From NCBI GenBank assembly GCA_021787445.1, contig JAJYLV010000002.1:37930-101929 (forward strand): 64,000 nucleotides of DNA, given 5' to 3'. How positions within the stretch are numbered: the first letter of the stretch is position 1; each line of letters opens with the position of its first letter. The notes below the pieces were generated by a model that saw only the letters and a program-made list of their open reading frames with translations, was not told the origin of the DNA and did not search any database. This document shows, piece by piece, positions 56,574-61,344 of this stretch. A program made the position numbers and the translations under genes. The DNA comes from Chloroflexota bacterium (GTDB lineage Bacteria > Chloroflexota > Limnocylindria > P2-11E).

Positions 56574-56822
56574 TCGGCGAAGGACCGCTCCGGCGGCCCC
56601 CTTCGTCGATGGTCGCGCCATGGAGCGTGACGATCGTGCCGTCGTCCAGGTCGGCGAGGGGCCGGTCCTCGGCGGCCAGCGTTCCTGCACGGCGTTCGAG
56701 GTCCACGGCAAGCAGGGAGATGGCCCCGGCCTGGCCCGCCTGCTCCTTCTTTGCGCTGAGGCGGCGCCGATACACTGGGCTCACCGCGGCGCTTCCTCCG
56801 CGGCGGTACGAGGGAGGGCGCT

Positions 56823-59800
56823 ACGCCGCAGTTCGTCCACCTGCATACCCACAGCGAGTTCTCGCTGCTGGATGGCCTCTCGCGGATCAACGACCTCGTC
56901 GCGCGCGCGAAGGAGCTCGGGATGCCCGCGCTCGCGCTCACCGATCACGGTGCGCTGTACGGTGCCATCGACCTGTACGTCGCGGCGAAGGACGCCGGGA
57001 TCAAGCCCATCATCGGCGTCGAGACGTACGTCGCGCGCGGCAGCCGCTTCGACCGCGACGCGCGGATCGAGGGCCACGGTCGGCCGTTCCACCTCGTCCT
57101 CCTCGCCAAGGACTTCGACGGCTACCAGGCGCTCGTCCAGCTGGTGACGGCGGCGCACCTCGAGGGCTACTACTACCGGCCACGGATCGACAGAGAGCTC
57201 ATCCGGCAGAACGCGGGGCACCTCGTCGCGCTCTCGGCGTGCCTTCAGGGCGAGGTCGCGCGCGCGCTGCAGGAGGAGGGGCTCGACGCTGCCGTCGGCG
57301 TCGCGAAGGAGCACCGCGAGATGTTCGGGGAGGGCAACTACTTCCTCGAGCTGATGGACCACGGCATCGCCGAGGAGGCGCAGGTCTCCGAGGGGATCCG
57401 CGCGGTGTCGCGCCGCACCGGGATCCCGCTCGTCGTCACGAACGACCTCCACTACGTCAACGCCGAGGATGCCGAGGCACAGGACGTCATGGTCTGCATC
57501 CAGAGCGGGAAGACGATCGACACGCAGGACCGTCTCAAGATGATCGACCACCCCGAGCTGTGGATGAAGAGCGGCGATCAGATGGCGGCGCTCTTCCCGA
57601 ACGACGGCGAGGCGATCGAGAACACGCTGCGCATCGCCGATATGGTGGACATCGACCTCCCGCTGGGGCAGGTCCGCCTGCCGCGCTTCCCGCTCTCCGA
57701 GGGGAGGACCGCGGACGAGCAGCTGCGGGCGATGGCCGAAGCGGGCGTCGCGCGGAAGTACGGATCGGTCACGCCAGAGCTGCGTTCACGCCTCGAGCAC
57801 GAGCTCAACATCATCCAGAAGACCGGATACTCGGGATACATCCTCATCGTCCAGGACTTCATCCGCTTCGCGAAGGAGCAGGGGATCCTCACCGCGGTCC
57901 GCGGCTCCGCCGGCGGCTCGCTCGTCACGTACGCGATCGACCTCACCGACATCGACCCGATCCGCTACGGGCTCATCTTCGATCGCTTCCTCAACCTCGA
58001 GCGCTTCACGCAGCCCGACATCGACGTCGATTTCGAGGACGACCGCCGCGACGAGGTCATCGCGTACGTGTCCCAGAAGTACGGCGCCGACCGCGTCGCG
58101 CAGATCGGGACGTTCAACACGATGCTCGCGCGCGCGGCCGTGCGCGACGTCGCACGCGTTCTCGGGATGCCGTACGGCGAGGCCGACCGCGTCGCGAAGA
58201 CGATCCCGTTCGGCTCGAGCCTCGCCGACGCGCGCGAGATGGTCGGCGAGCTCAAGCAGCTCGCCGAGGAGCCGCACGTCGTCCGCCTCCTCGACCTCGC
58301 CGAGAAGGTCGAGGGGCTCGTGCGGTCGACCGGGACGCACGCCGCCGGCGTCGTCATCACCCGCGATCCGCTCACCGAGCTCGTGCCGCTCGAGCGGTCG
58401 AAGGGCAAGGCCGACGCCATCCAGACCCAGTTCGAGGACAAGGCGCTCGAGAAGCTGGGTGTCCTCAAGTTCGACTTCCTCGGGCTGGCGAACCTCACCA
58501 TCCTCGACCGCGCGCTCGAGCTCATCCATGAGAAGCGCGGCGTGACGATCAGGCGCGAGGAGATCCCCCTCGACGACGCGAAGACCTTCGAGCTGCTCGC
58601 GTCGGGCGAGACGACGGGGATGTTCCAGCTCGAGTCCGCGGGCATGCGGCGCCACATCAAGGACCTCAAGCCGGACCGCGTCGAGGACGTCATGGCGATG
58701 GTCGCGCTCTTCCGCCCGGGCCCGATGGAGTGGATCCCGACGTACATCCGCCGCAAGCGCGGTCAGGAGCCGATCACGTACGACCATCCCGCGCTCGAGC
58801 CCGTCCTCAAGGGGACGTACGGCGTCATGGTCTACCAGGAGGACGTCATGGCGGTGACCCAGGCGCTCGCCGGGTTCTCGCTGGCCGAGGCCGACGTCCT
58901 CTGCTACACGATCCGAAAGAAGATCCGCGAGAAGCTCGACGCGCAGAAGACGAAGTTCATGGCCGGCGCGCACAAGCAGGGCGTGCCGATGGACGTCATC
59001 GAGAAGGTGTGGGCGAACTTCGAGCCCTTCGCGCGCTACGGGTTCAACCGGGCGCACGCCGCCATCTACGGGATGATCGCGTACCACACGGCGTACCTGA
59101 AGGCGAACTACACGGCGGAGTACATGACCGCGGTGCTCTCGACCGAGATGGGGTCTCCGGAGCGGATCGCTATCGCCGTCGCGGAGTGCCGACGCCTCGG
59201 GATCGACGTCCTCCCGCCGGACATCAACGCGAGCGACCTCGGTTTCGCGGTGGACGGGAACACGATCCGCTTCGGCCTCGGCGCGGTGAAGAACGTCGGC
59301 CAGGGCGCGGTCGAGACGATCGTCGAGGCGCGGCGCGCGGGCGCGCCGTTCCGCTCGCTCGACGGCCTCTGCCAGCGCGTCGACCTGCAGCGCGTCAACA
59401 AGCGGGTGCTCGAGTCGCTCATCAAGTGCGGCGCGTGCGACGCGTTCGGTCCTCGCCTTGCCCAGATGGACAAGCTCGACGCCGTCCTCTCGACCGCCCA
59501 GCGCGAGCAGAAGGACCGCGCGAGCGGCCAGGTCGGCCTGTTCGACCTGTTCGCGGCCGTGCCCGACGGCGGGAGGATCGAGGGCCCCGAGGCGCCGCGG
59601 CGTGAGCTCCTGGGGTGGGAGAAGGAGCTCCTCGGGATCTACCTCTCGCAGCACCCGCTCCAGGAGTACAGCCAGCGGCTTCCGCCTGACCTCGTCGTCA
59701 CCTACCTCGCCGAGCTCCGCGAGGCTGGCGACGACCTCGTCACCGTCGCGTGCGTCGTGACGAGCGCGCGGAAGCACGTCACGAAGAACAAGCAGCTCAT

Positions 59801-60419
59801 GCTCTTCGCCCAGGTCGAGGACCTCACCGGGTCCGCCGAGGTGACCGTCTTCCCGCGCACCTACGAGGCGACGAGCGGCGTGTGGGCTTCCGACGAGATC
59901 CTCCTCGTCCTCGCGCGTGTCGAGCAGCGCGACGACGCCGCGCAGCTGCTGTGCGAGCACGCGGTCCGCTTCGACGAGGCGGGGATCGCCGAGATCCGCG
60001 CGAAGACGGAGGAGCGTCGCGTGTTCCTCGCGCGTAAGCAGAAGTGGTCGGGCAACGGCGGCGCGTACCGCGTGAACGGCAGCGGGAATGGCAATGGGAA
60101 CGCCGGATACGCCAATGGGAACGGCCGGACCGAGGCGCCGTCACCACCCCTCCCGACACCGGCGTCGGCGGCGCCCCCGATCCTCGTGCGCTTCCGCGCC
60201 GCGCTCGACTACGAGCGTTCGATCGCCCTGTTCCAGCGCATCCAGGGCGTCCTCGACCAGCATCCAGGCGCCTCACCCGTCGCGCTCGAGCTTCCGCGTG
60301 CTCAGGGGATGCCCCAGCGCGTACGCACCTCGTTCCGGGCGGAGGCGAGCGAGGACCTGGCCGCCGCGATCGAGCGCGAGGTGGGCGACGTCGTCGAGGT
60401 GGTCGTCGGGGCCGACTAG
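56823..60419 (+). CDS. dnaE: DNA polymerase III alpha subunit, apparent ACG start
   Basis: (T)PQFVHLHTHSEFSLLDGLSRINDLVARAKELGMPALALTDHGALYGAIDLY; PDIDVDFEDDRRDEVIAYV; first ATG in frame only at 56922. Confidence 0.96.
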   Translation, partial: TPQFVHLHTHSEFSLLDGLSRINDLVARAKELGMPALALTDHGALYGAIDLYVAAKDAGIKPIIGVETYVARGSRFDRDARIEGHGRPFHLVLLAKDFDGYQALVQLVTAAHLEGYYYRPRIDRELIRQNAGHLVALSACLQGEVARALQEEGLDAAVGVAKEHREMFGEGNYFLELMDHGIAEEAQVSEGIRAVSRRTGIPLVVTNDLHYVNAEDAEAQDVMVCIQSGKTIDTQDRLKMIDHPELWMKSGDQMAALFPNDGEAIENTLRIADMVDIDLPLGQVRLPRFPLSEGRTADEQLRAMAEAGVARKYGSVTPELRSRLEHELNIIQKTGYSGYILIVQDFIRFAKEQGILTAVRGSAGGSLVTYAIDLTDIDPIRYGLIFDRFLNLERFTQPDIDVDFEDDRRDEVIAYVSQKYGADRVAQIGTFNTMLARAAVRDVARVLGMPYGEADRVAKTIPFGSSLADAREMVGELKQLAEEPHVVRLLDLAEKVEGLVRSTGTHAAGVVITRDPLTELVPLERSKGKADAIQTQFEDKALEKLGVLKFDFLGLANLTILDRALELIHEKRGVTIRREEIPLDDAKTFELLASGETTGMFQLESAGMRRHIKDLKPDRVEDVMAMVALFRPGPMEWIPTYIRRKRGQEPITYDHPALEPVLKGTYGVMVYQEDVMAVTQALAGFSLAEADVLCYTIRKKIREKLDAQKTKFMAGAHKQGVPMDVIEKVWANFEPFARYGFNRAHAAIYGMIAYHTAYLKANYTAEYMTAVLSTEMGSPERIAIAVAECRRLGIDVLPPDINASDLGFAVDGNTIRFGLGAVKNVGQGAVETIVEARRAGAPFRSLDGLCQRVDLQRVNKRVLESLIKCGACDAFGPRLAQMDKLDAVLSTAQREQKDRASGQVGLFDLFAAVPDGGRIEGPEAPRRELLGWEKELLGIYLSQHPLQEYSQRLPPDLVVTYLAELREAGDDLVTVACVVTSARKHVTKNKQLMLFAQVEDLTGSAEVTVFPRTYEATSGVWASDEILLVLARVEQRDDAAQLLCEHAVRFDEAGIAEIRAKTEERRVFLARKQKWSGNGGAYRVNGSGNGNGNAGYANGNGRTEAPSPPLPTPASAAPPILVRFRAALDYERSIALFQRIQGVLDQHPGASPVALELPRAQGMPQRVRTSFRAEASEDLAAAIEREVGDVVEVVVGAD

Positions 60420-60467
60420 CTCGCCCGCCGCGTACCCCTCCCGCGCGCGCGGTGTCATGCTCGCGGC

Positions 60468-61235
60468 ATGCAGTCGCGGTCCGCGGCCTCGCCGCCCGAG
60501 TCCGACCTCGCCGAGGCGGTCCGCCGCGTCGAAGAGGAGAAGGAGGAGTTCCTCTCCATCGTCGCGCACGAGCTGAAGACGCCGCTCACCCCGCTCAAGA
60601 GCGTGGCTCAGCTCCTTCGCCTGCGGCTCGCGCGCGCACGTCGCGGCGAGCGCGAGCTGGACCTCGATTCGCTGGAGACGAACCTCGCGACGATCGAGCG
60701 CCAGGTGGACCGGATGGACCGCCTCGTCACCGACCTGCTCGAGGTCTCGCGCATCGGGCGCGACCGGCTCGAGCTGATCCTCGAACGCGTCGACATCGCC
60801 TCGCTCGTCCGCGACGTCGTCCAGAGGTGGACCGAGGCCACGGCGGAGGAGGGGCGTCACCGCCTCGAGCTCGAGGCGCCGCCGAGCCTCGAGGTGACGG
60901 CGGACCGGCAGCGCGTCGACCAGATCCTCGTGAACCTCGTCGGGAACGCGGTGAAGTACTCGCCACACGGCGGCGCCGTGCACCTCCGTCTCGAAGAACG
61001 ACCCGGCGAGGTGGTCTTCACCGTCCGCGACGGCGGCATCGGCCTCGCGGAGGACGAGATCGCTCTTGTCGGCCGCGAGCCCTTCGTCCGGGGGCGCCGT
61101 GCGCACGGGTTCGCCGGCGTCGGTGTCGGCCTGTACCTGTCGCGGCTCGTCGCCGAGCGCCACGGCGGTCGCGTCGAGATCGAGAGCGAGGGCGAGGACA
61201 AGGGGACGACGGCGCGGTTGATCCTGCCGCGCTAG
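60468..61235 (+). CDS. Sensor histidine kinase (HisKA and HATPase_c)
   Basis: EEFLSIVAHELKTPLTPLKSVAQLL; DQILVNLVGNAVKYSPHGGAV; GVGLYLSRLVAERHGGRVEIES. Confidence 0.93.
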   Translation: MQSRSAASPPESDLAEAVRRVEEEKEEFLSIVAHELKTPLTPLKSVAQLLRLRLARARRGERELDLDSLETNLATIERQVDRMDRLVTDLLEVSRIGRDRLELILERVDIASLVRDVVQRWTEATAEEGRHRLELEAPPSLEVTADRQRVDQILVNLVGNAVKYSPHGGAVHLRLEERPGEVVFTVRDGGIGLAEDEIALVGREPFVRGRRAHGFAGVGVGLYLSRLVAERHGGRVEIESEGEDKGTTARLILPR

Positions 61236-61239
61236 CGGG

Positions 61240-61323
61240 TGCCGGAGGAGGGACTCGAACCCTCACGGGCTTGCGCCCACGGGTGTTTGGGACCCGATCG
61301 GCTACCGATTTCGACACTCCGGC
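61240..61323 (-). tRNA. tRNA-Leu (anticodon CAA), class II variable arm, C at position 33
   Basis: RC: GCCGGAG TG TCG..CGA T CGGGT CCCAAAC ACCCG, variable arm GGGC-GCAA-GCCC, T-arm GAGGG TTCGAGT CCCTC, acceptor CTCCGGC, A73; CCA not encoded. Confidence 0.88.
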
Positions 61324-61344
61324 GCGACGTCGATTGTGACAGGA

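Follow-up and report, generated by a model that had tools for sequence, protein, structure and literature searches.

To our knowledge, few bacterial genes have a documented conserved start codon other than AUG, GUG and UUG, with infC foremost among them. infC, the IF3 gene, is the textbook case of a start that IF3 discriminates against, and its start codon in E. coli is AUU. Non-canonical starts in S. aureus (PMC13009471) include AUA in infC, AUA in ccpN and AUU in cvfC1, each with an extended Shine-Dalgarno (SD) sequence, and in reporters such starts with a strong SD gave about 10% of the AUG level and are described as IF3-modulated. In Listeria, the starts ATT of infC and ATC of rnhC are confirmed (PMC13068326). 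A literature search returned no report of a conserved non-canonical start, or of such a mechanism, for the replicative polymerase gene dnaE.

The dnaE gene analysed here resembles infC of E. coli, S. aureus and Listeria in having a conserved weak codon, no canonical codon at the site and, in the genus of the studied gene, an SD predicted to be strong. It differs in that it encodes the replicative polymerase, its codon is mostly AUC and here ACG, it has a leader hairpin of its own, and its IF3 dependence is putative. ccpN, cvfC1 and rnhC likewise have conserved non-canonical starts outside infC, the S. aureus genes also having an extended SD, whereas these are other genes from another phylum, are experimentally supported, and have no promoter-proximal hairpin described for them in the available parts of the sources. 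We conclude that dnaE probably acquired an infC-type weak start, ancestrally AUC and here ACG, behind a promoter, a hairpin and an SD, and that DnaE synthesis would be low and IF3-responsive.

The dnaE locus and its reading frame

The window, which is the whole stretch of 64,000 nucleotides that was analysed, lies on contig C93 of genome G000, a 2.5-Mb draft in 185 contigs. The named relatives are metagenome-assembled genomes of uncultured Chloroflexota. The features of the locus are as follows.

56771 to 56776, plus strand: -10 promoter box TACACT (TAGACT or TAAACT in relatives), with a predicted transcript start at about 56783
56784 to 56803, plus strand: leader hairpin CCGCGG-CGCTTCCT-CCGCGG of 6 bp, from manual structural alignment, folds and compensatory changes in alignment A3
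56811 to 56817, plus strand: Shine-Dalgarno sequence AGGGAGG, predicted to pair strongly (-11.2 kcal/mol) if the anti-SD is standard
56823 to 56825, plus strand: ACG, the apparent non-canonical start of dnaE, where most relatives have AUC
56823 to 60419, plus strand: dnaE, encoding the replicative alpha subunit of DNA polymerase III; the span runs from ACG through the stop codon (60417-60419)

The product scored 1240.9 bits against the NCBIfam DnaE model NF004226, whose cut-off is 1002. Its PHP, NTPase/palm, finger and HHH domains are present at full length, with the Pfam models PHP, DNA_pol3_alpha, finger and HHH_6 all above their cut-offs. The frame opens after TGA 56757-56759 and contains the near-cognate codons CTG 56775, ACG 56808, AGG 56811 and ACG 56823. 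From the last of these it begins ACG CCG CAG TTC GTC CAC, giving T P Q F V H L H T H S E F S L L D G. Position 3 of the NF004226 profile aligns to frame residue 22, which is this ACG codon, and the NCBIfam profiles place the expected Met at most two codons from it. The next in-frame ATG, at 56922, lies 30 codons past the conserved F (taken as codon 0). The preliminary description had placed an ACG at the position of the expected Met with AGGGAGG 5 nt before it, and re-reading recovered both exactly, with the spacer at 56818-56822. Its further statements, that the studied frame has no upstream ATG, GTG or TTG and that a start at ATG 56922 would delete the first PHP motif HLHTHSE, agreed with the sequence and its translation. 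Downstream, tRNA-Leu(CAA) lies on the minus strand at 61238-61323 and is spanned by a plus-strand open reading frame at 60044-61339.

The same genome contains a second DnaE-type polymerase gene (L002, contig C67), about 43% identical and with an ATG start, which is found in most of the family. Its normal start could suggest that the studied dnaE is decaying while the second copy carries replication. This reading is very remote, because the studied gene is open from ACG across 1,198 codons, is 93% identical to its counterpart in G004, changes mostly at synonymous positions and keeps its leader, while divergence is greater in the C67 copy, which co-occurs with the studied dnaE in most of the family. 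An extra dnaE-like gene, 56% identical and with an ATG start, was also seen in another genome (L048, G007:C95) that is listed with 5% contamination, and its contig is possibly foreign.

Start codons of dnaE across relatives

Across the order, 24 distinct species were compared; the homologous codon is ATC in 18, ACG in two, and ATA (L030), GTC (L034), TTG (L038) and GTG (L064, outgroup family f2) in one each, so that AUC, AUA, ACG or GUC occupies the site in 22 of the 24. The second ACG species is L043 (the same as L063; genome G025). The three same-genus loci that cover the region (L004, L005 and L006) have ATC in place of ACG, with a similar SD at a similar distance. A canonical codon in relatives would have spoken against the ACG start proposed in the preliminary description, and none was found at the site in family f1 apart from TTG in the leader-less L038, with GTG confined to f2. 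Initiation at the ACG is well supported by relatives that lack a canonical codon and by the ACG of L043, but the idea of an isolated exotic start is not, as the weak codon is conserved across the family and the non-standard start of dnaE is an inherited lineage trait rather than a lone oddity. As a qualitative control, most clear orthologues among genes syntenic with G004:C134, shadow frames included, share canonical codons near the alignment start.

Where coding begins can be narrowed down in several relatives. In L025, L034 and L043 an in-frame stop lies six to eight codons before the conserved F, which limits the plausible starts to ATC, GTC and ACG, respectively; in L043 the frame is closed by a TGA eight codons upstream of F. 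Sequences of genus g2 differ in length by 1 nt (GGGGCAGGTC versus GGGGCAGGGTC) directly before the ATC, but the frame is maintained between the ATC and F, indicating that coding begins at about the ATC. Seven species have a canonical codon four to five codons before the weak one, ATG in L028 and L035 (g3) and GTG in L029, L030, L032, L037 and L039 (g2), and the claim is therefore strictest for the studied dnaE, L025, L034 and L043. Two loci deserve separate mention. In L034 (G019:C17) the TGA six codons before F is followed by GGT CCC GCC GTC CAG CAG, with an apparent GUC start that is two bases from AUG. In L140 (G131:C97) the frame is interrupted by a TGA just two codons ahead of the conserved F, reflecting either an indel error or an unusual start.

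The 30 codons from F onward change mostly synonymously, with 401 synonymous versus 32 non-synonymous pairwise differences in g2, which argues against a start at the internal ATG. Although CTG 56775, ACG 56808 and ATG 56922 are all in frame, translation from any of them instead of ACG 56823 is highly unlikely: CTG 56775 overlaps the -10 box and so precedes the predicted 5' end of the transcript, no separate SD accompanies ACG 56808, a start at ATG 56922 would cost the protein its first PHP motif although the codons ahead of it are under purifying selection, and relatives do not share the upstream frame.

In a DnaE tree, the two ACG species were placed apart. The ancestral dnaE start of f1 was likely AUC, for which ACG, AUA and GUC would be weak substitutes. 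Table 11 does not list ACG among its starts, and initiation at ACG should be weaker than at AUC. We know of no C-to-U mRNA editing system of the plant-organelle kind in bacteria. ACG is the codon repaired by such editing to AUG in plastids (PMC9845219), yet the same conversion in the dnaE mRNA is scarcely conceivable, since the AUC of 18 relatives could not be turned into AUG in that way.

The leader of dnaE

Hairpin-bearing members of f1 share a common layout of a -10 box, a short GCTTC-loop hairpin, an SD and the weak codon. The distance from the -10 box to GCTTC is 14 nt in the studied leader, 14-16 nt in the hairpin-bearing f1 relatives and 11-12 nt in genus g8. GCTTC is invariant in the loop, which reads GCTTCC at 56791-56796, and the hairpin is kept throughout f1 except in g8, where only GCTTCC remains, and in g5, where all of it is lost. 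With the anti-SD assumed rather than taken from this genome, SD pairing energies are -10.7 to -11.4 kcal/mol in g1 and g4 (including the studied gene), -7.1 to -7.3 kcal/mol in g2 and -5.5 to -8.2 kcal/mol in g3, where four of five SDs are weak. Genus g2 (L026-L041) also has a near-invariant GTGGGGCAGG between the hairpin and the AUC, a conservation beyond the apparent need of an SD.

Pairing was assessed on 12 leaders of g2 and g3 (alignment A3) because MAFFT misaligned the 3' arm on the full leader set. These leaders form a hairpin of 5+2 bp with a bulged A on the 3' side, and their covariation score was 0.169 versus 0.063 for shuffled alignments (0 of 500 as high). Both-sided changes occur in two pairs while five of the seven never vary, so the structural support is moderate. 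The fixed spacing of the hairpin to the -10 box would allow a role at the DNA level, whereas the compensatory changes favour one in RNA. A covariance model (R1) built from the same 12 leaders, with the genus of the studied genome left out, matched the studied genome only at the dnaE leader (56771-56806, E = 0.035). Of the 18 other f1 genomes in which it matched anything, 17 had the match at the dnaE locus, the exception being G022, where the leader is lost; across 177 genomes of the class, scattered weaker matches elsewhere had E values of 0.001-0.09. No Rfam 15 model reached its gathering score in the window, and none reached E ≤ 1 in 56730-56900. A loop-SD pseudoknot that would sequester the SD, suggested by CUUCC and the purine-rich SD, was rejected: when 19 leaders were compared with shuffles of their downstream sequence, the lowest p was 0.088 and none fell below 0.05.

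Sister families and infC starts

In families f3, f4 and f5, nearly all dnaE loci read have a GTG, ATG or TTG start, usually shortly behind a TACCAT- or TAGACT-like -10 box in the layout of a leaderless mRNA (L134-L176). These orthologous genes share a similar -10 box directly upstream with the studied dnaE but differ from it in their canonical starts and in lacking both leader and SD. Family f2 combines a GCTTCC hairpin with a GTG start, and L038 of f1 has lost the leader and starts with TTG; leader and weak codon thus go together within f1. The leader seems to be older than the weak codon.

Weak starts are also found in infC of this clade (loci examined include L179-L198 and L229-L242). The start is AUA in the studied genome (L187, G000:C120) and in 19 other f1 genomes, and GTA in G002 (L178); it is AUA in f5, AUU in f4, and AUC or AUA in f3 with one probable CUG. 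In G028 of f2 (L231), an ACG aligns to the AUA, and the 12 open codons upstream of it include no canonical start. The use of the same weak codons by infC and dnaE, ACG included, is the main reason for reading the ACG of dnaE as a genuine weak start.

The recurrence of ACG also bears on whether the true codon is ATG and the ACG an assembly or sequencing error or a strain variant. A single T-to-C change separates the two codons, and the genome is a draft in many contigs. Moreover, ACGCCGCAG of the studied dnaE equals ATCGCGCCGCAG of L005 and L006 minus TCG, a single 3-nt deletion; ATGCCGCAG could be obtained likewise from a 3-nt deletion, and a deletion yielding ATG with a later T-to-C change is as possible as a direct deletion to ACG. 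Nevertheless, an error or variant is unlikely, because ATG is absent from this site in all f1 relatives and ACG is also found in dnaE of L043 and replaces AUA in the infC gene of G028, hence recurring at weak-start sites of the clade.

Implications for DnaE supply

In the proposed mechanism, the dnaE transcript would start from its own promoter and carry a 5' GCUUC(C)-loop hairpin, then the SD, then the weak codon. The SD would help to place initiator tRNA(fMet) on the non-AUG codon, as in infC, and IF3 would discriminate against this codon, slowing initiation and keeping DnaE synthesis low and responsive to IF3 and to the state of the ribosome. A low initiation rate with IF3 sensitivity is plausible, and it is likewise plausible, by analogy with measured non-canonical starts, that the weak start throttles polymerase levels as the preliminary description had suggested. 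More tentatively, the leader might act as a lineage-specific translational operator, in which the 5'-terminal GCUUC-loop hairpin (with the bulged A in two genera) and the IF3-discriminated AUC or ACG start would let either the DnaE protein or the condition of the translation machinery set the amount of replicative polymerase; we regard this as possible but doubtful.

Gene callers restricted to ATG, GTG and TTG will truncate dnaE in these genomes, with loss of the first PHP motif. In this clade, ACG turns up repeatedly as a weak start, in both dnaE and infC. The dnaE loci form a natural series from leaderless with GTG, through a leader with GTG and a leader with AUC, AUA, ACG or GUC, to a lost leader with TTG, which lets one ask whether the start codon sets the supply of polymerase.
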